Assembly: GCA_963971285.1 (NCBI GenBank)
Contig: OZ020248.1
Span: 22,279,873 to 22,343,872 of the forward strand
Direction: 5' to 3'
Length of the DNA stretch: 64,000 nt
Origin: Astropecten irregularis
Taxonomy: Eukaryota; Echinodermata; Asteroidea; Paxillosida; Astropectinidae
Shown here piece after piece: positions 31,414 to 64,000 of the stretch; positions within the stretch are counted from its first letter, which is position 1, and every line of letters begins with the position of its first letter. The notes below the pieces were generated by a model, which saw nothing but the letters and a program-made list of their open reading frames with translations, did not search any database and was not told the DNA's origin. The position numbers were made by a program, and so were the translations under genes.

Positions 31414-33292
31414 TTATTTTATCCGCTGCCATGCTGATGCAGCTGTACCTATTGGCTGCTGTTTACTCACTGAACTGGTAGACAGCGAGGGAAAGTCCCG
31501 ATGCATGTTCAGATGTCCCTGTAGCTCTGAGCGTTCCATCGTCTGTCCACACTGAGGGCAGGAACAGTTAGCACTGGCTGCCGACTTCCAAGCCCCAGAA
31601 CCCCGACCTTTGGCCTTCGTACTCGACGGCTCTGACTTCCCCGTTTTCAAGATGTTGTTATCTTTCTGGTGCCTCTCTTGGACTTGGAAGTCGTTCTGAG
31701 CTGCGAGGAGCTCCTGCTGTTTCATGACGTCAGGGAGCAAGCTCACAAGTTCATTGAAGATCTTTGGGAGGTTGTCTCCAAGCAAGACCCTGCACTGATG
31801 GTAATAATCGGCAGCTGTCGTAGACCCATCCCGGAACCTCCTAGAGATGGACCTGAACATGTCAAACTTGGTCTCCTGATTGTCCAGAAAGGCTTTTATT
31901 TGACTGGCTAACGTCAGGTTACGCTCTTGAAAGTTTGACGGGTGGATGTAGACGTCAAAACCAGGCGGGAGGCTACCATTAGACATGGAGACGCTGACTC
32001 CGAATCCAGGGGGCGGGCTGATCGGATGAGAAGCTGCGGCTGTGGCAGGGGGCTCGGGTTGGACAGTTGAAGGAGCGGAAACCTTGAGTGACAGTCCCGG
32101 AGGAAGTCCGGGTGGCGTACGCTGAGGAACAACAGCTTTCTTTCCTTGGGGCGCAGATGGCGCACTTTCAATCTTGTGGCTCGCAAGTCCAGGTGGTAAA
32201 CTCTGCTTTGACTCGCTAACGACGACTCCCCGAGGCTCCTTCGCAGACTTCTTCCCTTTCTTTTTGGACTTGGAGGCACCCTGCTTGGGTTCCTCGGGTT
32301 GTGGCGTCGTCTTATCTTTAGGAGCGGTCCAGGCAGACTTCTGGGACTTTGTCTGTTGATTCGTTTGGCTGGGTGCTGCTGGCTCCACACCAAGGATCCC
32401 TGCGATTGAACTCAAGGTGGGAAAGTCGTCGTCCTTATTTTGAAACGACCTCTGCGCAGGCATGGCAACTGGCTGCTTCTGTGGCTTGGGTTGAGTGTCC
32501 ACTTTCTGGAGGGCCGAGTAGAAATTGAATCCCCCTACAGCACCAGTACTCCCAGCACTTGGTCTGCCGGAGCCTCCCAGGGCTGGAAAGTCCTCCGCCT
32601 TGGCATTCAGGCCTGTCCATGCCAACGTTGTAGATTTGGATTTCAGATCAGCTTCATTACCGATGGGCGGGTAGTCCTCTTTCCTAACATCAAATGTCCA
32701 CGATGTCTCTGATGGTTTATCATCTGCCGGTTTCCTACTGCTCTGCAACGGCGCACTCTCAGCATCAGCGTCAGTGTCTGCATCGGTCTTGCTGGCTTTG
32801 TTCTTGTTCTTCTTCTTTTTGCCTGTCTCCTTAACAGTCGCTTTAGGAGCGACAGCATCACTATCAACCTTTCGCTCATCAGTGACATTCTCCGAAGTCT
32901 TTGCAGTCTTCTTTGTGGCTTCCTCCTCAACCTTCCTTTCAACCTTTTCTTCGGGTGATGTCCGTCCGCCTTTCTTCTTAACCCTCCTCTCCTTATTAGT
33001 CGTCGCTGCCTCTCTTTCTACAGTTTCCGTGGCGACCGCATCCTGCTTACTACTCTCTGTTCTCGTCTTGGAGGTGTTGTTGCCATCTGAGGAGGCATCC
33101 TCGGCTTTGGCTGAGGATTTCTTCTTGGTCTGAGGATTGTCCTTGCTCCGTTTGGACTCTCTCTCCTCCCTGTCTTGTCTGGCTTTGGACCCCCTCTCCT
33201 CTCTGTCTTGTCTGGTCGTTTCTCGCCTCTCCGCTGCTTCTCGTCTGCTGGTCTCCATCGATGCTTGCAGTGCAGTTTCTAGGTGTCCATCC
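31414..33292 (-). CDS. ZNF598: ZNF598 coding exon 6 (low-complexity middle and C-terminus)
   Basis: A large 3' exon starting DGHLETALQASMETSRREAA after acceptor CCTAGCAG. It has a lysine/glutamate-rich stretch, the DFPALGG and DFPTL motifs, Pro-Gly runs, the conserved domain NFQERNLTLASQIKAFLDNQ to LLPDVMKQQEL, a CPQCG zinc knuckle and FPSLS before the stop. The open frame by itself begins at 33258, an internal Met. Confidence 0.96.
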
Positions 33293-36200
33293 CTGCTAGG
33301 TAATAAACAGGTGAGCCAGAAATTATCTACAAGTGGTCTGCAGCCTTATATTCATTCAATCTTTTAAAGTTGCATAATTCACAATAATTATGAGCCACAT
33401 CAGGTAAAAATACAAAATGGTTATTTAAAGTAGATTACTCAATTTCTTTCAGAGCAAACTTAAACACCTTTTTCTAATCATGAACTATTTTGTCCATGGT
33501 TTGAATTACAGTCCAAACTCATAAAATGGTGGAAAAATCAGTCAGTTTCCCTTGTTTTAGGGAACAAATTTGTTTGGTATTTTGCAACAACAAAAATAAT
33601 GCTTTTCGTTTTGTTGCAAGTTTTGTTGGAAAATAACAATTCAAATTACCTGTTTCCTTGGTAACGTCTGTCCCGCCCCCTGACAAATGAAGGACCACCG
33701 CCACCACCGCCGCCTGTAATAACCGACCAATCAAATCAAGTTTTGAAATTTTGAAAATGATGATAATTTCAATCGAAAGATATTATGCTTTGCATGGTGA
33801 TATTTGGTATGTCGATCAGTTTGCGGTAACACCATGTAATATACAGTTCGTACTTTCCCACTTCTTATTTCGTTGCAAGTCTTGTTTGTTTCGACTAGCC
33901 TGCTCTAGTCAGGTCCCCTGATGATGACCAGAGCAGGCTAGTTGAAACGTTGAGATCAAGGAAAAGAGCGACGAAAAAGTGTTGAAAGTACAAACCGAAT
34001 ATTACATACCAGTGTTAAATATAGTCTTGGTTCACGACTACGGTATGTTATCATTCAACGTACGAACCAATTACCCGCACTGACCCGCAGGTACGTACGT
34101 ATGTACGTAAAGACCTGTCTAAAACATAGTCTTTGGAGTCGTGTAAGGGTCGTGAGTTGCGTGCGCACCTTGTTATGTAGCACAATACGTCGTCTTCATG
34201 ACAACACTGTTGAATATGTATGATTTCCTGCACAAGCCGCGTAGGCAAGCATGCACGGACGTGTAAGTTTGTATGTTAATAGGCTGCGCCTGATTCAAAA
34301 GTAACGCATGCGCTGTCTGTTTCCCCCCGTTTTTGGGGGGAGATTTCACACAACTACCAAGACTATGTTTGAGAGAGACCTGCGTGCGGGTCAGTGCGGG
34401 TAATTGGTTCGTAAATTAGAGTAACAACATAGTCGTGAACCAAGACTATGTTAAATACCGCAAACTGATCCACAAGATGAAAAAAAGCTCTCCAAATTCT
34501 AACTCTGGTTTTCTTGGCTGGACCAAAACCGAAGACAAACCTCGATCGGACGGTCTCGGCGGGAGATTAATCTCAACGTCAATGTGCCTCATCTGGCGGG
34601 CCTGGGCTCGGGACATCTGGCTGGTGTGAGCGGTAGCCTTGTGGGCCTTGAGATCGATGCTGGTGCGGAACACATGGGTGAACTGCTCCTGGGCACAGCG
34701 GTCCTCCTCGCAAAGGTAATGCTGCTCACTAAAGTGCTCCTTCAGGTTGTCATAATCACTACGGGTAAAATAAGAGAAAATGATTGTTTGGTCAATTTAC
34801 AAATGCCTCAGATTGCACCACATAGCACCTGGAACTTGAAGTTTTCCAGAGCCCAGGGCCCAATTTCATGGAATCCGTTAAGGCCTATTTTTGTGCTTAT
34901 GGGCACTGCTACGTGTGAAATCTATTTCATGGAATCCATTATGGCCTATTTTTGTGCTTACGGGCACTGCTGCGAGTGAAATCTATTTCATGGAATCCGT
35001 AAGCAAGACTTTCGGTTAGCGAAGAATTTCTAGGGTAACCGTGATTATTTTCTCCTAACGGGCTGTCGTATGCATTCTGCAGAAATTCCTTGCTTACCGT
35101 TACCAAAACGAAAACTCTCCCGTGAAATACGCTAACCGTAACCAAAAAAAGTCTGCTACCGTAAGCGAAGATTTTTTGCTAACGGTAACGGCAGGGTTGT
35201 TTGATTTAAATCACTCGATTTAAATCATTGATTTAAATCATGATTTAAATCAATGGAAAAAAATCAAAAAAATCGCTCATAAAAATCAATCATGATTTTT
35301 TTTTCATTTTTGATGATTTTTTTTTACGAAAATCTGAATTTCTTACTGAAAGAACACTTGCATTAACTTTTGGCTTAGTTTTTCCACTATAACAGGGTGT
35401 CTTAAAACAGTTTTTGTTGTGTTTTTACAATGAAATTTTACTGTACAAAATACGCATGCACGTATACACACATGTATGAAAAATGAGGCAGTATCCTGAA
35501 GCAAAGTACAATGTATGTGTACAGCATTACTTGTAGACTTTGTAATTTACAAGTATCTATAAAATGAATAGAATTACACCGTAAAATAATACGTACATGT
35601 ATGCAACTGCAAAGAATTAACTTTTGTTTGTGTACATGTACATCACTACAACTTGACTTTGCACACTATTACTGCCATTATTAGCTCTAATACACATGTA
35701 CTGAGATGCAAATGGACCACTGGTACGTACATGTACAAGCCATGAAACATCTTTGAATGTGGTCTTAAACATCCCATCAGCAAGGAAGCAATAGAGTATG
35801 CCTGTAGTGACTGTCAGTGACATTTTCTTTTTTTTGTTGCTTTGGATTTCTTTACTTCATTTTAATGACCACAATGCCCAAGCGACAAGAAGATGCAATT
35901 TGGCATTATTTATGGGTTTTTTAAAGCAAAATGTTATGATAGTAAAATGTTATTACGTAAAAACAATTAAGATTTTAATTTAAATCAAAAAAATCGATTT
36001 AAATCAAAAAAATCTGATTTAAATCAAATAAATCAAATAAATATTTTTGATTTTTTTATAAAAATCATGATTTTTATCAACCCTGTACCGTAACGGATTC
36101 CATGACATTTGGCCCAGATGCCAATGCTGCAAGGACTTCGTAATCAGCACTCACACAATCCATTCTTGACACCTACCAGTAATCCTTACAAAACAGTACA

Positions 36201-39200
36201 ATAACCTGACAGTGGGGCACTGTGGCCAAGTGGTCTGGCGTGTCGTACTCAAGATCTTGTGGTCAATCTACAGATTGTGGGTTCGAATGCAGCCATGGGC
36301 TAGTGGTGCTTGCGTCCTTGGGCAAGACGCTTTATCGCACATTGCTCCTCTTCACCCAGGCGTAAATGGGTACCTGTGAGGGTAGAGATGGCTTTGTTTG
36401 TTTGATTAGCCCTGCGCGCTTTGCAGGCAGCTGCGGGCTGTATACTCCCCAGGGAGCTGAGATTGTTTCAGGAATGTAAATGGGCCCAATGAACAGGGAT
36501 AATAATATATTTAAAGCATTGTAATACCCTTCTTGTGTGTAAGAACGTTATATACATGTAAATGCCCGAATTATTATTATAATTATGATGATATATCTTA
36601 CCTGTAATACTGATGGCTGACGCCGTCTGTCTCACAGAAATGACAGAAGTAATGCTGCCGTCGTAAGTGCCTCAACAGCTCGTCGTTGTCAAAGAACCGA
36701 TCGTCGCAGAACTCGCACAGCGGATGGCCACGATAGGACGTGTCCTTACCATCGCCTTTGCGTCGGTGCAGCGCAAGATCCTTGCGCGTGTAGGTCTTGC
36801 GCTCAAAGGGAAACACCTGCAACAAGATCACAAAGATTCCCAACTTGATCAACCTTGAGAATTTAATTACGCTAAGCAAGATAGTACCGAGTACTAGGCT
36901 TGGGCGGTTTACCGGTTTTACGGTTTTACTCGGTTTTATTTTTCTGTCGGTTTTTTTCGGTCGGCATTTTATGAAAACCGCAAAACCGTCTGCAACATAT
37001 TTTATTATACATCATGCTGAAAATCGTAATTACTTTATAAACTTTGTAATTACTGCAAAAGGCACCGAGATATAGACAGATAAAAGCGAAAGAAAAGGCC
37101 ACCTTTTCGGTCGTAAAGCGCCGAAACACCGCGGTACTGTAGCGTAAAAAAACACAGCGTACACGGGCAACAGAGCTCACTCAACGGCACACACATCTCG
37201 ATCGCACGGTGACTACACAGCGACCACGCGGTGTATGTTCTGAGTGCTATGCACGATGCATGGTTTGTTGCGGTCGGAATACCAGGAATGAAGAGACTTG
37301 TCTTGGTCCTTGCAATACTTTAGATGTGGTTTTTTTTACGTACGTACCGCCTATTGGGTAATTGAGATGGTGTGAATCAGTCGTGTGAGGGCGCACTACG
37401 AACAGCGATCGAACGTTTTGGATCAAGACTATGTGTGTACAAAATGGCCGACCATGCGGTCTGGTGAATTCGAAGTCGAAATGATCGCGAGCGTACGTCA
37501 AATTCAGCGAGCGTTTTCGCTGAAATTATACCGGTAATTAGGGTTAACATTATCAAGTTAATTCATTATTTCGTTTGTTCGTTTATATTTTAGTTTGATC
37601 GTTTTGTAATTTGAATGGTGATCTTTGGAGACAAGTTGTAACGTTCCTGCGTCTGTGAATTTCAGTGCGTTAGGCCCGCTTATTATTTTTGTTATGTTTT
37701 TTACTAGCCTACGGTTTTACGGTTTTACGGTTTAACCGAGTCAGGGTCTCACGGTTTTGTCGGTTTTTATTTTTTTCAAAACCGCCCAACCTTACCGAGT
37801 ACCGGTAACAAAATGAATAACATGGAAATCTGGCTGGTGAACGGTATTCCCTTAGCAAAACTGTTTTTCGTGATAAGCCAAAAGTTTCTGAACTTCTCAT
37901 GAAGTTCAATCATGGGCCTGTTTGTTTCACGTATGAGATCACGGATCCTGCTGATCCAGATCCCATTTCAGCGTATCCTGCATGGGACGTGGATCTGCAG
38001 GATCCCTGATCACGTGCCTGAAACAAACGGACCCTAGGCTATGAAACAAGAAATTAGAATGAACATTCCTCTAGGTGCGGCGTCAGGCGAAAAAAAAAGT
38101 TATTCACGGTTGAGCCATGTTGTTTCAAAACTATTGAATCAGATTCTTGCTAATAAAATGCACTTTTTTGTAAGATTTCCATCCTAATATAAACCAAAAT
38201 GACTCAGAAAACAACTAAAGATTGGCAAGAAAACTATCGGCTGAACCACTCATGATGTATGACACACAATTAATATTTCTGTGGGTGTCAATCAAAATAA
38301 TAGGATGATATAATTCATGCCTTTAGAAGTTGCTGGTAAAACTGAAAACAACAAGTAATTTGTTTGTGCGGGTGTACCAGCTAGCTGAAAGCAAAAACGG
38401 CCCAAGTTTACTTTGGGATATTGATCAGTTTTTTGATTCAATAAAAGATTCCTTTCAGTTTGTAAGCAACAGCAGTGGCTACATGTTGTTCAATAATTAA
38501 CCATACAGTGGCACTTTTGGAAACATCTGGCTTTCTACATGTATAAGTCATCTAAAACCTAATAATACAGACATGACAGGCTGTTGATTTTATGTTCAAA
38601 CCAAAGCATTTACTTTCTCATTCATATTAAGAATTATTTCATCATAATTGGAGACAGGATCCTGAAAGCTTCTCTTGTTGTGCATTTTGGTAAATTTATA
38701 CATTGTACATGTATTTAACTACCGGTACTCAAATCAATAAACCTATGTAGAGTACAGGGGCCGATTTCACTAACGCTTCGCGATCATCATAAAGCCCAAA
38801 TCCATCGCTAAACAGAAAATCGATCACTACTTTGCGTAGCAATTTTTCGTTTAGCGATTAATTTGGGCTTTACGATGATCGCGAAGTGTTAGTGAAATCG
38901 GCCCAAGGTGTGGTCTGGGTGGCTTGAGGAGTAAACTACAGTAAAACCTTGATGAGTCGAAACTCAAGGGAATGAATGTAAACTTCGACTCATCCAAGCT
39001 TCGACTCACGAATGTTTTGAATAGTCAAGTCAAATTGTGCACATAGAATAGGGGGGACCGACTCACAATAGAAGTGGCATGTTCCGTCGCTCAAATTACA
39101 TGTACAGGCACTTCATTTTCAATTATTTATTTGTATAATGTATGATGAATAATAAATTGTATGAGTTTTTATACATTTCTCACCTGAGAGTTGGTATTTT

Positions 39201-42200
39201 GCCGATATTAAGCGCCGTTATTTGTCTTCTAAAAAAAAAATACGTGTTTCATATCCGCACCGTTATTGCGATAAAAAAATAATCCATCGCCATGATCGCG
39301 TGAGATCGCTCAATTTTCAAAGACTTAAGCTTGGATTTTTGTTTGGAAAATATGATTATAAAAATGCATCTTTTATCTTTCTTAAATTAAAATGAGGTAC
39401 AAAATGATCTTCAAGCCCGTACTGCAAAACAAACATGTGTAATGTGCGTAACAACTCAGTCAACGAGCTGTCAAAAAACACCAAACCTGTAAACACACGC
39501 TGTACATACAGCAAGCACGTGCATGTTATGCTCCATAGGGGTTGGAGTCAATGATCAATTGCTGTACCCCCCTTAGTCTTTGCTCCAGATGTTAAAATGG
39601 CCAAACGTGAATGCGGTACATGTACGCGTGCATTATCACGGTAATGTGTGCGTTCAGTGCGGTTGTATTTAGGCTACGTGCGCTAACCCCGAGTCAGTCT
39701 TTGTTCCAGACGTTAAGTTGGCCGAACATGAATGGGGTGCATGTACGCGTGCATTGTCATGGGTTCAGTGCGGTTGCATTTAGGCTACGTGGATTGCGGA
39801 AGTGTTGTGTATCATGAAGCATTGTTGTGTACCGCATGGGGCCAACATAGCATAACGTGCATCACATGCAGTCGATCTCCACGCAATAGGTGACTCATTT
39901 CTTCACAATGGGAACGTGAAAGCCGAGTAACCACATTAAAATAGACACCGCGGAGTTTATAGAAAAGTTTTCAAGTCATTTTAACACCTAATTAAGACAG
40001 ACTCGGCCACGATTTTTTCATTGTTCGGAACGGGAAATCTTCGACTCAAACGGGCTTTTGACACAGGTAATTCGACATTCGAAAGTATTTTTGTACACAG
40101 AAGCCTATTTTTTCGGCGGGAATAAAGCATCACGTCGTCTTAAGCGAGCTTTCGGGTCATACGAGGTTGACTTATCGAGGTTTTACTGTATAGGCCTGTA
40201 CAAAACCAGGCTTGAGGCTAGGCTTGAGACTTATTTCGCTACTGCCACTTGAGGCCCACAAAACAAAATGAAGGGATTGGCCCACATGACATATCCGAAG
40301 AAAGGCTCTGGGAGCTTCGCAATGGCCCTTTTCCAAACCTCGGCTCCGGCTCAGGCTACAGCTATGGCTCCATTTCGTGAATCAATTTCGTAAAACAACA
40401 GGTACCAAAATAGAGACTTTTGGCTACGATTTGGAAGTAGATACTCTATTTTGAACAAGAAAACAGGGATTCGGATTCAAGGAAATCCACAACTTATATT
40501 TTTAGCATATGGATAACAGCGCCGGAGCCTGAGCCTGAGCCGGAGCCAGAGCCGAGGTTTGGAAAAGGGCCCTAGTATCTGAAGCTCTTTATTTCATTTG
40601 GGACACAAAATGGCGGTTGCAAAAAAAATCTCAAGCCTAGCCTCAAGCCTCATTTCGTAAGGCCCTATAGCAGGATGAATGCAGAAGCTTTAAGGACCAA
40701 AGAGTTATGACAAGGAGGTTTCCTACCTCATAGGTTAAACAATGACAGGTGAACTCGCCCCCCTGGCCGACTTGCCCCTTACCAACTCACACCTCGCCAA
40801 CTCGCCCCCTTACCAACTCGCCCATTAACGACTCGTCCCCTGACCGACTCCCCCCCTCCCCTCCCCCCAACTTCAAAAAGTCACAAAAACTCAGAAACAT
40901 TGTCATATTGACAAAAATACAAAAGTCGGTCAGGTAGGTCTGGGGGTGAGTTGGGGAGGGGGCGAGTTGGTAAGGGGTGAGTCGGTAAGAGGCGAGTCGG
41001 CTAGGAGGAGAGTTGACCTGTTGTTACCGGCTAAAGATACATGATCTGAGATTGAGCTGAAGCCATAGCCTTAGCCACTAAAATGGGCCCAAGGCAAGTC
41101 TAATCATTGAAATGAGACCAATGATCCAAAACACTAGTAATATGGCTGTGGCTATACTGTACCTTTAGATGTTTGATACAGAGATCACAGTAGAACAACT
41201 CGTGGTTTTTACGCATGTGATCTTGAAGTGCCTTGAAGTTCTTTTCTGGAAATCCCTTGCAGATGTGGCAGACCTCATGCAGCAGATGATAGAACTCCTG
41301 TAGGATACTGCTGTTGGCAAAGGCAATGCCCGCCTTGCGATCCACGGGGAACTTGTGGGAGATGATGCCATCGTACGGATGCAGTTTCACTGTCGCAACG
41401 ACCTGTCGGTGTCAAAAGTTTCAAAGATGAGCACAACTAGCGTACTTATGATGAAGGAACTATTCCCTGGTCAGGGCTGGATTTCACCAAACACAGCTTT
41501 AGATCTTTTTATGAGTTTGAGTTGTTGGTATCACCATAGGGATTTGTATTTTGACACTTTGCTTTTAAAAGCAATTGGAATTGATCTTGCAGTCATAACA
41601 GTTTTAGTGCTTTGTGAAATCCACCCCTGATCTTTGTGTTCCAGGAGTTCCTAGGCAAAGTGTGATGTCACAATACAAATCACTATGGTACATGGAATGC
41701 TAACAAATCATCTTAAAACGTTTAAAGGGTAAAACAGATCCTCTATTTAAACACTGTTTTTTAACGGAAATTTGCATAATTTTGTATGAATAGAAATACG
41801 TGTATGACATAGTGCTTGTGAATTGATGTATGGTTTCAAAAGTCTAGTAATAGTACATCACATCCATGTATGCACAATAAACACAGCAAGCTGTGCTGTG
41901 TGATTAAATAGAGGATTACTAATATTTCTTCAGATTTGATCGTGACCATACAACTTCCGTATTTCAAATTTCTATTTATAATCATACAGTTGCTAATTTC
42001 TTTCAAAAAAAAAATAGCCGATACGACTTTTACAAATTTTCCCAGGCTTTTTTACTTACTCCGAACTTACATGTAACATTACTTTACTAATTGCAGACAT
42101 TGTCATCTGTCAATTAAATGAACATCATTTTGGGAAATAACTATATAAATTATAAATATATTTTTACTCCACACCATGTTTACTTTAAGTTAACCCTGTG

Positions 42201-54480: not shown

Positions 54481-54534
54481 TGTGCATGTGAATGTGGAGC
54501 ACAATACACAATCTGAGGGTGGAGGAAAGAGACA

Positions 54535-54791
54535 TACTGTTTATATTTGGGGGTCACATACAGGAAGAACCTCCAATACAGGGACCAACCAAGGACAGCA
54601 ACATAATGTTTCAGATCGACTTAGATACAACATCTGCTTCAGTGACACGTGCAGAGTCAATGTCCAGTCTGACTACAGCTGGTGCATCTCTCCTACGGTT
54701 AGTTGAAGATGTTCTTCTCATAGCTGGTGGCACCACCCAACATTTCAGCACTTACACAAATAGAAATATAGAGGCACCATTCTGTGACATT
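54535..54791 (+). pseudogene. RAG2-like copy A, Kelch part, left of the Harbinger insertion
   Basis: Encodes the blade start ILFIFGGHIQEEPPIQGP, then IMFQIDLDTTSASVTRAESM, the next blade EDVLLIAGGTTQHF and the start of the PHD finger (EAPFCD). The sequence then stops at the Harbinger end. Homology to the sister copies begins near 54540; upstream DNA is unrelated to them, so the copy is 5'-truncated. The gene resumes after the transposon at 61385. Kelch blades followed by a PHD finger is the RAG2 layout. As it stands the copy is broken by a 6.6-kb insertion. Confidence 0.75.
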
Positions 54792-55085
54792 AGCCCTGTC
54801 CGCATTGGACTTAATTTTGTAAGAAGTTTCCGCGAGACACTGTTAACATTCCATTGCGGTAACTCTTACGGGCGTCCGCACTGGATTTATTTTGGCTGAC
54901 GGTAAGTCATAACCTTAGCACCGGTAGTCTCATGAGGGCGTCCTATTGTTGACCTTTGTTACCTGACACCGGATGTTGATGACATTTGCGAGTGCGCTTG
55001 GCGCGAAATCAGTCTTTCGAAACTCTTCCGTTCATAATTTCAGCCTTGTCGACGCGTAATTTCAAAGATTTCAATATAATACACC

Positions 55086-57688
55086 ATGTCCGACGTGTCA
55101 ACCACCGCCTCTAAAAGAAAGCACGGTGGTAAAAGTGACGGAGCCAACGACAGAAAACGAAAACGGAACTGGACGCAACAAGAATCGTCAATACTGATTG
55201 CTGTGTGGGGCGAAAAGGCTCACCAAGAGGGGTTCGAGGGCCTACAGTATAATTCGCGTGTGTGGCAATCCATACACAAGCGATTTCGAGAATTGTGCTC
55301 CGATTGCCCATATCAGACATGGGAATGTCTGAAGGACAGAATAGACTATTTGAAGAGAAAATATAGAGAGGTGAAGAAAGTGAACAATGCATCGGGACGG
55401 GGAAGGATCACTTGCCCTCACTACGATGAGCTTGATGAAATTCTAGGTGAGTAACAGTTAGCATGGTTAGGCCTACATCATGATATACAGCCTGTCACTT
55501 TAGCTATAAGTAACATTAGGGCGTACCTGTTGAATTTTTAGTCTGAAAAATGTATTTTGTTATGCGAGATGAAAATTCTAAATGGGATGCAGTACCAAAA
55601 ACAATTTTAAAGTACGGTTCAGTGATTAATAATTTTTTTTTAAATTATAGGCTATTATTAGACCCAGTAGCTGTGGCGCTGAACTCCCTTTTTAATTTTG
55701 GGGTTGACGGTCGGTCTAGCGCCCCAGAGAATTGTATAGGGCTAGATGTGTTGTACACAGAAATTGTAGTTTTTGCACTTCACGCTACTTGTGCCGAAAA
55801 TGTCCCCAAATAACAACAAAGACATCACATATCAATCGTCCGCCATCTTGTGTGGCTCTCCGCCACACACACCATACACATGTGACTTCATGCTCGTTTC
55901 TGATTGGCAGAGAGCCAATCCAAGATGGTGGACGATTTTAAACGATGTCAAAATTTTCATTGGAAAACATTGATTTTCATCAAAAGGAATGATTGTGAGT
56001 ACAAAAAATAGCCTGCATTTCATCCTTGACAATCGGAGAAGAGATTGAGCGATTTTCAACCCGATCTGTGGTGTCTTTGTTGTCATTTGGGGACGTTTTC
56101 GGTGCAAGTAGCGTGAAGTACAAAAATTGCAAATTTTTTCCGCGTACAACACATCTAGCCCTATACAATTCTCTGGGGCGCTAGACCGACCGTCAACCCC
56201 AAAATTAAAAAAGGGAGTTCAGCGCCCCATTTACTGGGTCTAGGCTAGTAAACAAAATGATATACATTTTCATAAATATTGAATTTGTATACGACGATGT
56301 AAAATCCAGTAGGGCCTCATTTTTAGAAAAGTATGGTGGCTTGTCATTTTACTCTGAGCAAAATGAGAAATGAAGCATCTGCTTACAATATTTCAAGAAA
56401 TGTTTGTGTCATGGCTAGCAATTACCATGTTTTGTTCAAATTGTCATTGTCAACAGGGAGACGTCCAATGACGAATTGCCGGGCTTTTCATCACGCTGAT
56501 GCAGACCTGAGCTCAGATGAAGATAGCTCACAAGATAGTGCACCCCCATCTGTACAAAGTGACCTGGTGAACTACGCACGAGGTATTGAATTGTAGATAT
56601 TAATATATAATTGTGTTCCTCACCGAAGTACACTGCAAACCTTTACATTTGAGTAGAGTAATGAGACTTGATTCAATATTTGCCTTTCAGAAACAATAAC
56701 CGACGACATGAATGCGATGGATGAAGAAAGTGGGCATACATCAAATGACACATCATCACAGAGTTTGAACACATCTGCGGAACTCGAACCAGAGAGTGCA
56801 GTTGATCAAACAAAAAAGAAAGCAAAGCAGGAGAAGTACAATGGTATGTACTAGTTGCTTTATTTTGAGAACATTGTTTGAAAATTAATTGGGTGCTTTG
56901 ATTTGATTTGAAATGGTTTATTAAGTTAAAATTTATTCTCCGCCAAAGGCCGAATTGAAAAATTTGTATATGGACATGAACTTAGAAAATGATAAATAGC
57001 ACATAAACAAAATTCAAGAGAAAAAAAGGAAAATTAATGGTTAATAGCACACCCAAATTTTTTTTAAAATCAACTTTAACAGATAAACTAGAGATTTTTT
57101 TCTTAAAAATAGGAATTGCAATTTGGAGGAGTTACTTTATTTTAAAATCAGAGCCATATTTGCCGAGTGAATAAAAACTGAGAACCAAGTATGGTACTGC
57201 GTAACCCTATGGTGTGTGTGTGTGTGAAAAAGTCATAAAATTAACTGTGTAGTCTGTTTGTCTTCCCAAACTTATCAGGTCTAATGACAAGGAAACGGCG
57301 TGGGAAACGTTCCCAGATTGAGGAGGCCATGGCGACCAGCATCTCAACGCTCATTGAGTCCCAACAAGCTACAAGAGATGACTCAATGTTGGAACTTCTT
57401 CAACTTGAGAAGGATCGCTTCCAGTGGGAACGAGAGAGAGACCGTAGAGAAGACCAGTGGAGACGTGACAAGCTGGCAGCACAGCAAGCAGCACAGCAAA
57501 CAGCAACTCAGCAAAATCACCAGTTGCTGCTACAGCTTGCCAGCATGTTTGCAAATAACAGCAACACAAAAAGTTATGCAAATTTGGCCCCATGCAACCC
57601 AACACCAAACAAGGACATGCCGGGCCCAGTACACCCTTACATTGATCACAACACCTTCAATTTCAATCCACAGCCACCTCATTTCTAG
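55086..57688 (+). CDS. Harbinger Myb/SANT-like DNA-binding protein, four exons
   Basis: The accessory protein of a PIF/Harbinger transposon. In characterised elements it helps the nuclease enter the nucleus and bind the transposon ends. Exons: 55086-55446, 56457-56582, 56691-56843, 57279-57688. They total 1050 nt, giving 349 aa plus stop, all joined in phase 1 with GT-AG borders. A basic start (KRKHGG, DRKRKR) leads into a Myb/SANT or trihelix-like domain at about 28-100, with tryptophans in NWTQQESSILIAVW, VWQSIHKRF and TWECLKDRI. An acidic Ser-rich linker follows, then a coiled-coil-like stretch (LEKDRFQWERERDRREDQW) and a Gln-rich tail. Intron 1 holds a 584-bp foldback MITE. No stops or frameshifts were seen. 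Confidence 0.88.
55659..56242. mobile_element. Foldback MITE of the TAGACCCAGT family inside the Harbinger intron
   Basis: The ends are TAGACCCAGTAGCTG and a near-complement, with about 170-bp arms that include CGGTCGGTCTAGCGCCCCAG and CCGAAAATGTCCCCAAAT. The flanks GGCTATTAT and GGCTAGTAA match at seven of nine positions, an aged 9-bp duplication. It lies in intron 1 of the Myb-like gene. Confidence 0.85.
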
Positions 57689-58929
57689 AAACTTCCCATT
57701 TCCAACAACTCCCTCTCCAGAAATCATTTGTTTTAACCATAGTGTAGTATGAACCTTACTAATGAAAATTAAAGAAAATATATCCCTTTTCAGCTGCATC
57801 ATTTTTTTTTGTTAACGAAAGCTAGATTCTTAGTACATGTACATTCTTTTGATGTTCAAGTTCATTAGCATTGAACATTGATATGACTCGATAAAAAACT
57901 TTCATTCATTTATTTTTTCTAATTTTTTGCCATTTTAATATATTCATGTGCAGTCTTTATACATCATTCCGTCCATGTTGAAAGGAGTGACCTGTAATAA
58001 CAACATTAATTTAACTGCTTTTTTTATTTTACGGGTTCTTGTTACGGGTTAACCAATGCCAAAGTTATGTAAGTTTGTAGTTATATGTATTTGTAACCAC
58101 ATATTTTGCCATTTTCAGAGTTTGAAATTTACAGCCATTTCTTGCAAACTATATTAAGAAAAACATCAATTTTTTTTATTGGTATTATCTAAGGAAATTT
58201 GTCAAGTTTCTGTGCAGTATGATCAGTCATGTCAAGCAAACATATACCGGTAGTCAAGGTTTTTGTTTTTATTTACAGATTTAGTTGTACATGCATTATA
58301 ACAAAGTGTCAATCAGAATTCAGAAGTATGTTGTTATACTTATACTTGTGTATTACTTTGATGAATATTTAATTACTTATACACAATCACGTGTAGTAAA
58401 CACCTTGATACACGTAGTACAGATACATTGTTATGCCACTCATCCTAAGTTCCTAACAATCGCTACCAGCCCTAACAGAACATTTCATTTTTGCAATATC
58501 TAATTGTATACAATTATTACTTCTTGCCATAAAATAGAACCTTCATGTCAGTTTTTTTAACACATCTGTCAGGTTTAGTGCCCATTGTTTTATCATCAAT
58601 CTCTCCTACTATTAACGGTCTTTCAAAATGTTTAATGGCAATAATTATATTCTCATTGTTTACACAAACTTCAAATTATATCAGTAGTTGGGTTATTTAA
58701 TCGTAATAAAACAAGTTTTAAGACTATCACATCCTTGTCGTCACTGTGTTTTCAACCAACCCTGGATCAGATGCATGCGCAGACAAAAGTCAGACCCATT
58801 TTATCACTGGATTTATCAATGAGATAACATGAAATGATGACAATCAAACAATACAGCTAATAAGGATCATAAAATTAATGAAGACACTTGTTATTTATTT
58901 AATTTAATTACTGTATCTAATTTATTTAT
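57689..58929. other. Spacer between the two convergent Harbinger genes
   Basis: AT-rich, noncoding; expected to hold both 3' UTRs. Nothing else seen. Confidence 0.6.
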
Positions 58930-61030
58930 TTAATTATTTAAGAAATGCCTTGTCAGTGCATTACGTATTTGTTCTCCGGTAGCAGTGGCAGCAATTTCCT
59001 CTTCATTGTTAACTCTTTCGTCAGGCTGGTCAGCATCTTCAGGTTTATCTTGTTCCAAATCCCCATTGTCCAGTTTCCACGTTTCACAGAAGTTGTGCAG
59101 TACAATGCATGCAGAGACTAAAATATGAACATTTTTAGCATGCGAGTCATTTCTCTTCATGATACACCTCCAACGTCCTTTCAAACGGCCAAAGGCATGT
59201 TCCACCAGGATGCGGGCTCCACTAAGTCTTACATTGAAGCGAAGTTGTTCAGGAGTTGCTATTGCCTCTGCGTATGGTTTCATCAGAAATTCCGTAAGCC
59301 CATATGCGGAATCTCCTAATATGACAATTGGAACATCTTGGTCGTCAATTTGTCTTGTCAGTTTGGGATAGAAAGTTCCATTCTTAAGTTTAAAGAAAAG
59401 TTTAGATGATTCAAACACCCAGGCATCATGGCATTTGCCAGGTTGTCCAACGTCAAAGTCAATAAATTTAAACTCGTGGTCAACTAGGCCTTGCAAAATA
59501 ACACTGTACCAACCTTTTCGGTTGAAATAATCAGTGTGGTATTGATCTGGGGCAATGATTGGAATGTGAGTCCCATCAATTGCCCCACCACACATCGGGA
59601 ACCCATATTTAGCCTCAAATATGCGGATCATTCTGTTGACACTCTCACCCTTTGGTCTCTTCACATAGATGGGCTTCAGAAATGTGCAAATGGCATTGCA
59701 CACATCCCAAAAACCATCACAGGCTGTAGTGCGTCCCACACCAAACAAATTGCTAATGGTGCGGAATGACTCGCCAGTAGCTAGCCGATACAATGTTAGT
59801 GCTACAAGCTTAACTGTGCTCACAGGCTGCCTCATGTTTGTATCTTGACGCATGATGTGTTGCTGCAGTTGATTGCAGAGGAGCTGAAAGGCTGCTCTTG
59901 TCATCCGAAAGTTCTCGTACCACTGCCTGTCTGTGAACTGTGTAAGGACATCTATTTCCCACCACTGGCAACTGCGTTGTCTTCTCCAGACTGATATTGG
60001 TGAATACACAGCAGAAACTGTTGGGGGAAGAAAGACAACAAATTGAAACATACATGTAGCAATTTCTGTAGCAAAGTTTGTCCATTATTCCATTACTAAA
60101 ATGGATGCCTGTGCGTACTTCATCTGGTTGTGTGTGATTTTGAAAGAGTAGGTCTCTTGCGCAGCTATTGCCTCTTAAGTTACTAGCCCGGCAGTAGTAC
60201 TAGTAGTGGCGGGTTGTGCAATAATTTTCAAGACATGACAAGACAAATTTAGTTTAAAGGTAGTATCATACTTTGGTTTTTGTCAAAGAAGTACAGATTC
60301 ATGGGTAAAAATATCAAAGAAGATACAGTCACAGTCATCTGTGAAAATTTAAGTGCCATACGGTGCCTACTTTTTGAGAAAACAGTGAAAAACGGCCATG
60401 GTATTTAAGTCTTTTCTCTTTTATTTCTGATATTTTAAAAGACCAAAAGAAAAAAAGAAAAAAAATTTTGGTCGTTGTTTTATTAATCTGAATAAATACA
60501 CCATTTCAGGCGGAAAAATTTTAACGGTAGGTTTCTACTAGCATCATCTTCATACCCTGAAAGTTTTACGTAAACATATGAACATTTCTGATTTGGTGTA
60601 ATGGTGTAATTACCAAAGTATGATTCTACCTTTAAAAAAGTATTTGAGATCGAGATTTTTCATTCACATAGATCATTACAAATGCTATGAAATGGTGGAC
60701 TTAAAAAATGCTCTGAAATATTGGTCATTTTAACTCACATAATCCACTCAAAATCACGGCGAAAAAAAGCGTTGACTCGTTCTGTCTTCGTTGTTGGTTC
60801 TCAAAACATCTCCGTAGCAGCCGCATTCTCCGTCTGTTCCGCGATCTTTCTATCGCCCGAGACCCCTGTCGTCGTTGTGACTCCTGAGAAGCTTGAGGGA
60901 TTGCCCTTATACCAACTAAATCGCTCAATATCTCCACCAATTCTGCCATTATTAAATCTTGAAAATACAACCCGTACTTTTCACGAAACTGTTGCAACGC
61001 TGAAAGACCGGAACGTACATGTACGTACAC
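58930..61030 (-). CDS. HARBI1/PIF1-type DDE nuclease (Harbinger transposase), two exons
   Basis: The catalytic protein of the Harbinger element, a DDE_4 superfamily nuclease that cuts and pastes the transposon. Exons: 60739-61030 (donor TTAT|GTGAGT) and 58930-60017 (acceptor CCAACAG). They total 1380 nt, giving 459 aa. An internal ATG at 60949 would give 432 aa, and the true start is uncertain. The catalytic triad is visible as GAIDGTHIPI (D245), GDSAYGLTEF (D333) and LVEHAFGRLKGRWR (E370), numbered from the longer start. A helix-turn-helix-like segment (FRTISNLFGVGRTTACDGFW) precedes it. The intron contains a TA-flanked MITE. The open frame and intact triad suggest recent activity. Confidence 0.92.
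60257..60632 (+). mobile_element. TA-flanked MITE, family 1, nested in the Harbinger nuclease intron
   Basis: Full copy with both TIRs (AAGGTAGTATCATACTTTGG), flanked by TA. It lies between the two nuclease exons, so it jumped after the Harbinger arrived. Confidence 0.9.
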
Positions 61031-61387
61031 GCTCGAGCTGTGACTTCCGTACTATACTGTGTCGAGTGTGAAAACTCGCGCGCGAATAGTGCCAAAGGTC
61101 ACTGGGATATCTGACCCGGCGGATGTCACGTGACAACATTGTAAGTTTTACTTGACAAAACCCGTCCGCACTGGACTTTACAGCGACGTAAAACTAACAT
61201 TGTAACTCTTCAGCTACCCAGTTGGCCCTGTAAGATTTACCGCTGTGGAGGGTAAAATTAACAATCGACGTCCGACACTTGACAATTTGGGAAGTCTTCC
61301 GGCCGTCCGCATTGGACTTAATTTGGTAAAACTGACAAGAGTCTCCGTAAGAGTTACCAAAATAAGTCCAATGCGGACAGGGCTATA

Positions 61388-61450
61388 GCCAACTGTCAAA
61401 TTAATGATCAAAACAGACCTGAAATTATTGACTGGGTGCAGTGTTCAGAA
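61388..61450 (+). pseudogene. RAG2-like copy A continued: PHD finger fragment
   Basis: Directly right of the Harbinger end. It continues the reading frame as ANCQINDQNRPEIIDWVQCSE, the first and second zinc knuckles of the PHD finger. At about 61449 it switches by a deletion junction into the Kelch part of another copy, so the HxxC and final CxxC ligands are missing. Confidence 0.75.
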
Positions 61451-61670
61451 AGACAAGAAATACATATCGATGACAGCAACAACCAGCATCAGAAACTCCT
61501 TCTTTATATTTGGGGGTCACATACAGGAGGAACCTCCAATACAGGGACCAACCAAGGACAGCAACATAATGTTTCAGGTCGACTCAGATACATCTTCTGC
61601 TTCAGTGACGTGCTGAGTCAATGCCCAGTCTGACTACGGCTGGTGCATCTCTCCTACGGTTAGCTGAAGA
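61451..61670 (+). pseudogene. RAG2-like copy B, Kelch fragment
   Basis: Reads KYISMTATTSIRNSFFIFGG and then IMFQVDSDTSSASVTC in one frame. It loses the frame near 61615 (the ACGTGC context is shortened) and ends in LTTAGASLLRLAEDV before another deletion junction at about 61670. Both ends are recombination joints to neighbouring copies, so it is not a gene on its own. Confidence 0.7.
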
Positions 61671-61689
61671 TGTTTGTTCTGAAGAAGCT

Positions 61690-62165
61690 TTGATGCCATT
61701 CCAGCAGACAAGAAATACATTTCGATGACAGCATCAACCAGCATCAGAAACTCCCTCTTTATATTTTGGGGTCACATACAGGAGGAACCTCCAATACAGG
61801 GACCTGCCAAGGACAGCAACATAATGTTTCAGGTCGACTTAGATACAACATCGGCTTCAGTGACACGTGCAGAGTCAATGTCCAGTTTGACTACAGCTGG
61901 TGCATCTCTCCTACATTTAGCTGAAGATGTTCTTCTCATAGCTGGTGGCACCACCCAACATTTCAGCATTTACACAAAAAGAAATATAGAGGCACCATTC
62001 TGTGACCTGGCCAACTGTCTAATTAATAATCAAAACAGGCCTGAAATCATTGACTTGGTGCAGTGTTCAGAAAGGACATGCAGCAAGTGGTGTCATATAT
62101 TTTGTTGCAGCCTGGAGGAAGTACCTGCTGATAATGTATGCTTCACCTGTCCTGAGTGCAAATAG
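61690..62165 (+). CDS. RAG2-like copy C: two Kelch blades plus complete PHD finger
   Basis: The best-preserved copy. An open frame runs from FDAIPADKKYISMTAS through the blades LFIFWGHIQEEPPIQGP and EDVLLIAGGTTQHF into a PHD finger and a stop after CPECK. The longest ATG frame is 61725-62165 (146 aa). In it the zinc ligands are C93, C98, C114, C119, H124, C127, C139 and C142, including the typical WxHxxC (KWCHIFC). RAG2 has a six-bladed Kelch propeller followed by a PHD finger that reads H3K4me3, and the partner RAG1 carries the nuclease. Only the last two blades are present here, and the 5' side is cut by a deletion junction, so this is either a terminal exon or a fragment. It could be another Kelch-PHD protein, but blade order and spacing favour RAG2-like. 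Confidence 0.72.
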
Positions 62166-62189
62166 CTAGAGGTATGCCCCATGACCTTC

Positions 62190-62930
62190 AGAAAGCAAAA
62201 CAATTCTTGCACAGCAAATGGGTCTACGAAACGAAGGAGGACAGCTCTTTGGCACAAGATATAAATTCAGTTATGAGAGAAAAAGAACTGGAGAAGATGT
62301 AATAGAGTCAACTCGACCCATCTCATTTGAACCGATCCCTCTGTGCAGCAGTAAGTCGAGCAGAATTCAGCGAGGGACATGTTTACAGCACAGAAACCCT
62401 ACATGAGACATACTGCTTGTTGGGGGATCAATGCATTTTGTAGGCCACAAGGCAGACAGAATGCCAGTTAATTATGTAGATATAATTCATATAAATGACT
62501 TTACCAATAACAGGTTTTCAACTGAAAACATATGCTTTGATGTCACTCCAGCAGACAAGAAAAAATACATATCGATGACAGCAACAACAAGCATCAGAAA
62601 CTCCCTCTTTATATTTGGGGGTCACATACAGGAAGAACCTCCAATACAGGGACCAACCAAGGACAGCAACATAATGTTTCAGGTCGACTTAGATACAACA
62701 TCTGCTTCAGTGACATGTGCTGAGTCAATGTCCAGTCTGACTACGGCTGGTGCATCTCTCCTACGGTTAACTGAAGATGTTCTTCTCATAGCTGGTGACA
62801 CCACCCAACATTTCAGCATTTACACAAATAGAAATATAGAGGCACCATTCTGTGGCCTGGCCAACTGTCAAATTAATGATCAAAACAGACCTGAAATTAT
62901 TGACTGGGTGCAGTGTTCAGAAAGACAAGA
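62190..62930 (+). pseudogene. RAG2-like copy D: longest Kelch run, PHD truncated
   Basis: Begins with an earlier propeller part (GQLFGTRYKFSYERKRTGED, then RPISFEPIPL and the blade motif IQRG). It passes an in-frame TGA near 62404 into LLVGGSMHFVGHKADRMPV and VDIIHIND. From 62431 it is open through PADKKKYISMTATTSIRNS, LFIFGGH, VDLDTTSASV and EDVLLIAGDTTQHF to VQCSER, where it jumps into copy E. The order of blades parallels RAG2. The stop and the frame slip around the RGH blade motif suggest decay, or an exon border I cannot resolve. Confidence 0.72.
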
Positions 62931-63145
62931 AATACATATCGATGACAGCAACAACCAGCATCAGAAACTCCTTCTTTATATTTGGGGGTCACATACAGGA
63001 GGAACCTCACATACAGGGACCAACCAAGTACAGCAACATAATGTTTCAGGTCAACTTAGATACATCATCTGCTTCAGTGACGTGCTGAGTCAATGCCCAG
63101 TCTGACTACGGCTGGTGCATCTCTCCTACGGTTAGCTGAAGATGT
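62931..63145 (+). pseudogene. RAG2-like copy E, Kelch fragment (duplicate of copy B)
   Basis: Same structure as copy B, displaced by 1472 bp, with the same left and right deletion junctions. It encodes KKYISMTATTSIRNSFFIFG and then IMFQVNLDTSSASVTC, with the same frame loss. Confidence 0.72.
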
Positions 63146-63159
63146 TTGTTCTGAAGAAG

Positions 63160-63649
63160 CTTTGATGCCATTCCAGCAGACAAGAAATACATTTCGATGA
63201 CAGCATCAACCAGCATCAGAAACTCCCCCTTTATATTTTGGGGTCACATACAGGAGGAACTTCCAAAACAGGGACCTGCCAAGGACAGCAACATAATGTT
63301 TCAGGTTGACTTAGATACAACATCGGCTTCAGTGACACGTGCAGAGTCAATGTCCAGTCTGACTATGGCTGGTGCATCTCTCCTACATTTAGCTGAAGAT
63401 GTTCTACTCATAGCTGGTGACACCACCCAACATTTTAGCATTTACACAAAAAGAAATATAGAGGCACCATTCTGTGACCTGGCCAACTGTCTAATTAATA
63501 ATCAAAAGTTCAAAACAGGCCTGAAATCATTGACTTGGTGCAGTGTTCAGAAAGGACATGCAGCAAGTGGTGTCATATATTTTGTTGCAGCCTGGAGGAA
63601 GTACCTGCTGATAAATAATGTATGCTTCACCTGTCCTGAGTGCAAATAA
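63160..63649 (+). pseudogene. RAG2-like copy F, Kelch plus frameshifted PHD (duplicate of copy C)
   Basis: Duplicate of copy C with small changes. A short insertion near 63507 shifts the frame inside the PHD finger, so the middle ligands are lost. A later small insertion near 63612 restores the frame for CFTCPECK before the stop. Copy C, not F, is the intact version. Confidence 0.72.
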
Positions 63650-63659
63650 CTTTATAGAG

Positions 63660-64000
63660 GTATGCCCCATGACCTTCAGAAAGCAAAACAATTCTTGCAC
63701 AGCAAATAGGTCTACGAAATGAACAAGGACAGCTCTTTGGCACAAGATATAAATTCAGTTGAGAGAAAAAGAACTGGAGAAGATGTAATAGAGTCAACTC
63801 GACCCATCTCATTTGAACCGATCCCTCTGTGCAGCAGTAAGCCAAGCAAAATTCAGCGAGGACATGTTTCCTGCGAACACTATACATGTAAGTGATCAAA
63901 ACAAAGCTCAGGATCGCTTTGCTGATGACATCAGTCACAGGGTGCGAGTAACTAGAGCAAAACAAAGTATAGGACAGGCACGCAGAAACCAGAATCCATG
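63660..64000 (+). pseudogene. RAG2-like copy G, early propeller segment, runs off the window
   Basis: Repeats the sequence that follows copy C (TATGCCCCATGACCTTCAG), then GQLFGTRYKFS, a frame slip, RPISFEPIPLCSSKPSKIQR and the blade motif RGHVSCEHYTC. Beyond 63885 it departs from copy D with SDQNKAQDRFADDISHRVRV and RAKQSIGQARRNQNP, which may be genuine RAG2-like sequence lost from copy D. It is cut by the window edge. Confidence 0.6.

Follow-up and report, generated by a model that had tools for sequence, protein, structure and literature searches.

A degenerate RAG2-like kelch and PHD finger locus in the starfish Astropecten irregularis

RAG2 is half of the enzyme that rearranges antibody genes. 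The subject of this study is a 64-kb stretch of Astropecten irregularis DNA (the window; contig C11, positions 22279873-22343872), the right end of which (54537-64000 in window numbering) holds a head-to-tail array of fragments derived from the 3' region of a gene resembling RAG2 (RAG2-like, RAG2L). A transposon encoding both RAG1 and RAG2 is described from the starfish Patiria miniata (TransibSU) in the available portion of PMC4411706; that portion mentions partial duplication of starfish RAG1-like (RAG1L) and oyster RAG2L genes, and not a tandem RAG2L array. The mitochondrial contig C168 reads in the echinoderm code, with AAA standing at Asn of a COI query (5 of 5), ATA at Ile (7 of 10), and AGA at Ser (4 of 6); by eye, ND1 lies near COI in the opposite orientation, a gene order of sea stars rather than sea urchins, so that the contig is probably that of a sea star. 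A lancelet host, suspected at first because of the ProtoRAG likeness, was rejected on this code and on the absence of any match to a lancelet fluorescent-protein query (run with no positive control).

Echinoderm RAG transposons (TransibSU, and RAGL_B as presented in the accessible part of PMC7204232) likewise have RAG1L and RAG2L genes, with a PHD finger directly behind the kelch propeller. In contrast to these transposons, the array lacks a neighboring RAG1L and a full RAG2L gene, and is joined to Mutator-like and BEN-domain pieces. For PHD fingers of invertebrate RAG2L, the same part of PMC7204232 states a zinc-ligand spacing of Cx4-7Cx14-16Cx2-4Cx4Hx2Cx11-18Cx2C, and it describes the invertebrate proteins as devoid of the acidic linker found in vertebrates and the lancelet RAG2L as an exception without a PHD finger. 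The lancelet protein (BbRAG2L, PDB entry 6b40, chain M) is the best PDB match of the array, which is collinear with it over blades 4-6; the alignment stops only shortly before the 366-residue chain ends, at approximately 21-28% identity. Unlike the lancelet protein, the array has a PHD finger; the locus as a whole is broken and repeated.

Layout of the array and its kinship with RAG2L

Blade 5 is present in nine copies across approximately 12 kb, six inside the window (near 54537, 61503, 61755, 62605, 62975, and 63230) and three outside it (starting near 64520, 65555, and 66401). The copies at 54537, 61755, 62605, and 63230 continue through blade 6, and the remaining two window copies are cut short. 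RAG2L sequence of the second unit starts at about 62385, and the open frame 62407-63105 includes its blade 4. The array runs approximately 2.8 kb beyond the window, to about 66797, where a Mutator-like piece follows. The motifs LLVGGSMHF, LFIFGGHI, and EDVLLIAGG, quoted in a first-pass annotation made from the sequence, lie where it had placed them, and in copy C (61683-62165) two blades read through into a Cys4-His-Cys3 finger, as it had described.

Searches of 177,635 distinct PDB sequences with window 62407-63102 returned the lancelet ProtoRAG RAG2L as the first of two listed matches (E 0.0076). The same chain was first of 13 listed for copy C (E 0.15), the remainder being mostly PHD fingers. 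In the opposite direction, lancelet RAG2L residues 234-365 matched the window with E-values of 1.2e-5, 4.0e-5, and 5.5e-5, all in the array (54531-54761, in the first copy, at 4e-5), the next being 0.073; composition correction and the low-complexity filter were off. These matches score 35.4, 33.9, and 33.5 bits, compared with a best of 31.6 bits among 300 shuffles, none of which reached 33.5. Across the genome (475.7 Mb in 168 contigs), five of the six listed places are in the array (E 0.0058 to 0.60, identity 22-28%); the sixth, on C28 (E 0.87), is by eye an ordinary kelch protein. The best window match of mouse RAG2 also falls in the array (E 0.98). Viral contigs gave three pattern matches and no relatives. 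By these two-way best matches between sequences, the array resembles RAG2L more than it resembles other kelch proteins.

Every spacing step of the copy C PHD finger fits the published invertebrate RAG2L pattern. A six-frame scan of the whole window found the pattern a single time, and 60 windows simulated at first order did not contain it; a generic PHD pattern whose first gap is short, as is usual, has no match in the window. The first PHD cysteine of copy C is the eighth residue past the YTK that ends blade 6, with no acidic run between them by eye. Among nine further stretches scanned (L034-L040, L050, L054), the pattern was found in L034, L036, and L038, and the PHD-like finger of a gene on contig C5 (L054, see below) does not fit it. 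A PHD finger also stands behind blade 6 in a dispersed copy at C11:21.70 Mb (L037).

RAG1L and RAG2L pieces elsewhere in the genome

Copy C matches at least 27 places in the genome (counts from this search are lower bounds), and all 19 with E <=0.01 fall in the 19.80-22.35 Mb interval of C11. Eight weak places (E 0.06-0.66) were set aside from these, two being in the array and six regarded as different genes or elements with a PHD finger. With a mammalian RAG1 core, nine genome matches were listed: six are on C11, one is on C5, and the others are on C23 and C25. Those on C11 occupy five places between 19.00 and 20.84 Mb, interleaved with the RAG2L pieces, so that RAG1L and RAG2L pieces lie together within 3.35 Mb. 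Extension past 64000, proposed in the first-pass annotation as a route to an upstream propeller and a convergent RAG1-like gene, yielded neither: blades 1-3 were unrecognised in the copies read, and the nearest RAG1L match on C11 is approximately 1.5 Mb away, with no convergent neighbor. The two-way best matches with lancelet RAG2L, the PHD spacing, and the RAG1L pieces on the same contig together support the degenerate RAG2-like kelch and PHD locus that it had named. That the array is a RAG2L relic is very probable.

The two groups of RAG1L sequences lean in different directions. For one C11 piece (L042) the score is 226 bits against lancelet RAG1L and 111 against vertebrate RAG1; for the C5 sequence it is 458 bits against vertebrate RAG1 and 272 against lancelet RAG1L. 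In a tree of seven sequences and 296 columns, lancelet RAG1L joins three C11 pieces (aLRT 94, UFBoot 97) and mammalian RAG1 joins C5 (aLRT 88, UFBoot 92); a tree of this size is too small to fix published family names firmly. The C11 pieces would correspond to RAGL_B and the C5 gene to RAGL_A, the array locus leaning to the lancelet side and the C5 RAG1L to RAGL_A and vertebrate RAG1-RAG2. RAGL-A elements in echinoderms have reportedly been described by Martin et al. in 2023.

The C5 sequence belongs to a pair of tail-to-tail genes (L054, L041, L050; C5:134647-143791), kelch on the plus and RAG1L on the minus strand. A sequence of 13 bases, CACAGTGTAACTT, bounds the pair: it stands at 134647, an identical inverted copy occupies 143779-143791, and CACCA adjoins both. 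Some 0.3 such 13-bp inverted matches are expected by chance in the flanks searched; the ends are nonetheless credible because they start with an exact CACAGTG heptamer and CACCA forms a 5-bp duplication. Speaking against it, the C5 kelch frame has ordinary kelch proteins as its best PDB matches (KLHDC2, E 8e-6), with lancelet RAG2L twelfth (E 0.0011), and the protein scores 16.6 bits against Pfam RAG2, below the cut-off of 21. The contig is small (206,701 bases), but a repeat next to the pair recurs at 99% identity on C27, C12, C10, and C3.

Several further pieces were noted. The matches at C23:10195629 and C25:7719960 (L046, L047) are near-identical Transib-like transposase frames of 422 amino acids, possibly of a recently moving element. 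In the dispersed copy at C11:21.70 Mb, blade 6 and a broken PHD finger are followed by a piggyBac-looking peptide (by eye). Four places on C11 (L038, L040, L039, and L036, at 19.80, 20.89, 21.26, and 21.36 Mb) have a PHD finger or only its end, and no kelch; these pieces have approximately 1.1-2.8 kb in common at 85-91% identity. In two of them, at 19.80 and 21.36 Mb, the PHD finger comes after a BEN-like stretch of another kind (by eye). An in-frame BEN-PHD fusion was considered for these two places and rejected, since the BEN-like frame stops at the junction (by eye); the 21.36-Mb stretch has no Pfam BEN match.

Decay of the copies and origin of the array

Across the nine copies, the variable sites of blades 5-6 number 11, 12, and 16 at codon positions 1, 2, and 3 (83 columns each), and four copies have small deletions. 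No constraint is visible here, although power is low. Small deletions, truncations, the insertion of a transposon, and the even codon-position spread all indicate decay. The PHD finger of copy D is disrupted by insertions. PHD dN/dS is 0.7 within the array and 0.26 between the two dispersed copies; the finger was under some constraint earlier, and under little since the array formed. The array contains no complete open gene under purifying selection. It is best classed as a RAG2L relic rather than as a RAGL transposon or a working gene.

Several observations weigh against this interpretation. The E-values to lancelet RAG2L are weak, even the best genome-wide being 0.006. Mouse RAG2 itself does not list the lancelet chain in PDB at E-values up to 10, so the array values should not count as poor in a family as divergent as this one. 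Pfam RAG2 (PF03089, vertebrate-type) has no match in the window or genome-wide, and the genome-wide null is uninformative because the profile also matched nothing in 14 control genomes. AlphaFold models of copies C and B have mean pLDDT values of 36.7 and 30.0 and are unusable for fold comparison. An open frame of 282 amino acids just right of the window (L034) has a BEN domain as its top PDB match and RAG2L nowhere among its 18 matches. None of the copies read has recognisable blades 1-3, only approximately blades 4-6, and the window has no credible RAG1 match (best E 0.28); with both missing, the RAGL transposon itself has to be deduced from scattered pieces. Finally, variable sites in eight PHD copies number 8, 5, and 15 by codon position (64 columns each) and dN/dS between array and dispersed copies is 0.11-0.34, and selection on the PHD finger may have persisted beyond what would be expected of a simple fossil.

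A transposon of the ProtoRAG type (RAGL-B-like), whole or in part, probably once resided in this chromosomal region. Its RAG2L 3' part (blades 4-6, PHD finger, and a short tail) would have become joined to fragments of a Mutator-like element and of a BEN exon, and tandem amplification would have given the nine blade-5 copies. A Harbinger element, now 6.6 kb of the array, would have inserted later. Loose RAG1L and RAG2L pieces would have become scattered over the 3.35 Mb of C11. By analogy with known RAG2 and RAG2L, the source protein would have assisted a RAG1L transposase as its RAG2-like cofactor: the propeller would have aided binding and cleavage of transposon ends, and the PHD finger probably read methylated histone H3. 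Today the fragments are most likely without function. The homology, layout, decay, and clustering of the pieces are shown by the sequences, while the succession of events, the former role, and the present inactivity are inferred.

Pack-MULEs in plants capture and multiply gene pieces. A similar route, in which a Mutator-like element captured and multiplied the RAG2L and BEN pieces in place of unequal crossing-over, is possible but doubtful. It would account for the Mutator-like fragments between units, and C19 holds both close Mutator relatives and a BEN-exon relative; however, crossing-over also yields head-to-tail units, and a close Mutator relative is present on C24 too. Capture of this kind is compatible with the fossil interpretation.

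A live or recently live host gene, in which a BEN exon, blades 4-6, and the PHD finger encode a domesticated chromatin-binding protein, is very improbable; an open frame just beyond the window gives the sole hint of anything other than a fossil. Two open frames to the right of the window, L034:136-738 and L034:1171-2019 (C11:22344008-22345891), comprise a truncated BEN part and RAG2L blades 4-6. The second is open from the BEN part to an intact PHD finger, its best PDB match is BEN domain-containing protein 6 (E 7e-5), it aligns ungapped with a sister copy over 600 nt, and the DNA just left of its BEN part resembles by eye that at a BEN relative on C19 (81% identity over 47 residues). However, the BEN profile match covers only 32 of 76 positions at 16.2 bits (cut-off 23.2), the 13 differences from the sister are spread 3/5/5 over codon positions with nine replacement and three silent codons, the sister stops in blade 6, and the first blades are absent. 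The first-pass annotation had allowed for either a relic or terminal exons belonging to a live gene; of the two, the evidence strongly favors the relic. Retention of a chimeric chromatin protein, with the 3' half of the RAG2-like gene taken up downstream of a BEN exon, is very improbable; such a chimera of BEN domain, half propeller, and PHD finger would mean that the RAG2 partner was domesticated without RAG1 and without recombination. An ordinary kelch protein adjoining an unrelated PHD finger by chance would suit the weak E-values, the generic sub-cut-off Pfam kelch matches of the RAG2L copies (some have none), and the many ordinary PHD fingers in the PDB lists, but is very improbable given the two-way best matches, the failure of any of the 300 shuffles to equal them, the exact PHD spacing, and the order of blade 6 and PHD finger at C11:21.70 Mb.

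Associated transposons and meaning of the locus

Most of the interval 54535..64000, assigned throughout to a RAG2-like locus by the first-pass annotation, is a PIF/Harbinger transposon that had gone unrecognised (Table 1). Its 32-bp inverted ends lie at 54791-54822 and 61354-61385, and no clean target duplication could be read in its flanks. The "RGH blade" and "early propeller" reported previously (approximately 62306-62384 and 63792-63950) are other frames of Mutator-like transposase fragments. The peptide LDPSHLNRSLCAAVSRAxFSE is found upstream of blade 4 (62306-62374) and again near the window end. A Mutator-like query of 117 residues (L034:2903-3253) listed 21 places, among them window 63819-63953 (E 2.9e-6); beyond C11, the strongest matches fall on C19 (77% identity, covering residues 11-116 and 11-114) and C24 (81%). 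Two C19 frames of 608 and 707 amino acids match the Mutator profile PF20700 (E 1.7e-45 and 1.9e-46) and both contain LDPSHLNRS.

Table 1. Features of the window and of the C5 gene pair (window numbering unless C5 is given)
Feature	Position	Strand	Basis or remark
RAG2L fragment, blades 5-6, first copy	54537..54788	+	92-96% identity to other blade-5-6 copies; transposon-cut
PIF/Harbinger-type transposon, inserted in first RAG2L copy	54791..61385	.	32-bp inverted ends, Myb-like and DDE_Tnp_4 proteins
Harbinger Myb/SANT-like open frame	55080..55454	+	PF13837, E 1.1e-14
Harbinger transposase open frame, 384 aa	58930..60084	-	PF13359 (DDE_Tnp_4), E 4.2e-31
PHD start of first copy, right of Harbinger insertion	61388..61452	+	92% identity to 62010-62074; truncated by next unit
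Truncated blade-5 copy, 2-bp deletion	61451..61674	+	Copy alignment
Copy C, blades 5-6, open frame	61687..62006	+	Top PDB match 6b40_M RAG2L, E 0.15
Copy C PHD finger, intact C4HC3	62001..62159	+	Sole window match to published RAG2L spacing
Mutator-like transposase fragment	62306..62384, ends approximate	+	Peptide in common with C19 Mutator frame
RAG2L blade 4 (LLVGGSMHF ... VDIIHIND)	62385..62604, left end approximate	+	Aligned with lancelet RAG2L 234-365
Second unit, blades 5-6 and truncated PHD start	62605..62924	+	Lancelet RAG2L match, copy alignment
Second truncated blade-5 copy, 2-bp deletion	62923..63146	+	Copy alignment
Copy D, blades 5-6	63159..63478	+	Copy alignment
Copy D PHD finger, insertion-disrupted	63473..63652	+	PHD alignment
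Second Mutator-like transposase fragment	63792..63950, ends approximate	+	63819-63953 matches Mutator-like query
C5 kelch frame	C5:134979-136286	+	
C5 overlapping frame, acidic stretch and PHD-like finger	C5:136232-136720	+	
C5 RAG1L frame, 1074 aa, RING and core	C5:141641 to 138420	-	RING match over cut-off

A repeat of approximately 370 bases is represented by 16 matching pieces in the window (positions include 13051, 17434, 19095, 26950, 30987, 46003, and 60253) and by another copy next to the C5 pair; identities are mostly 79-91%. Exon-like pieces were seen by eye on the minus strand of window 31414-41411; they presumably belong to a ZNF598-like gene.

The bearing on how a RAG partner was retained or lost in non-jawed lineages, raised in the first-pass annotation, is served weakly by the array, a starfish transposon with RAG1 and RAG2 having been published in 2015 (PMC4411706, in the portion available). 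The array is a fossil of a kind already known, and its value lies in recording a loss. It also documents, for the ProtoRAG side, a RAG2L with a PHD finger, a domain that the lancelet protein, according to the accessible part of PMC7204232, does not have. One genome combines a decayed ProtoRAG-type family, its detected pieces confined to one chromosomal region, with a separate, vertebrate-leaning RAG1L accompanied by a kelch-PHD gene, and such an animal is a place for watching two RAG lineages side by side.

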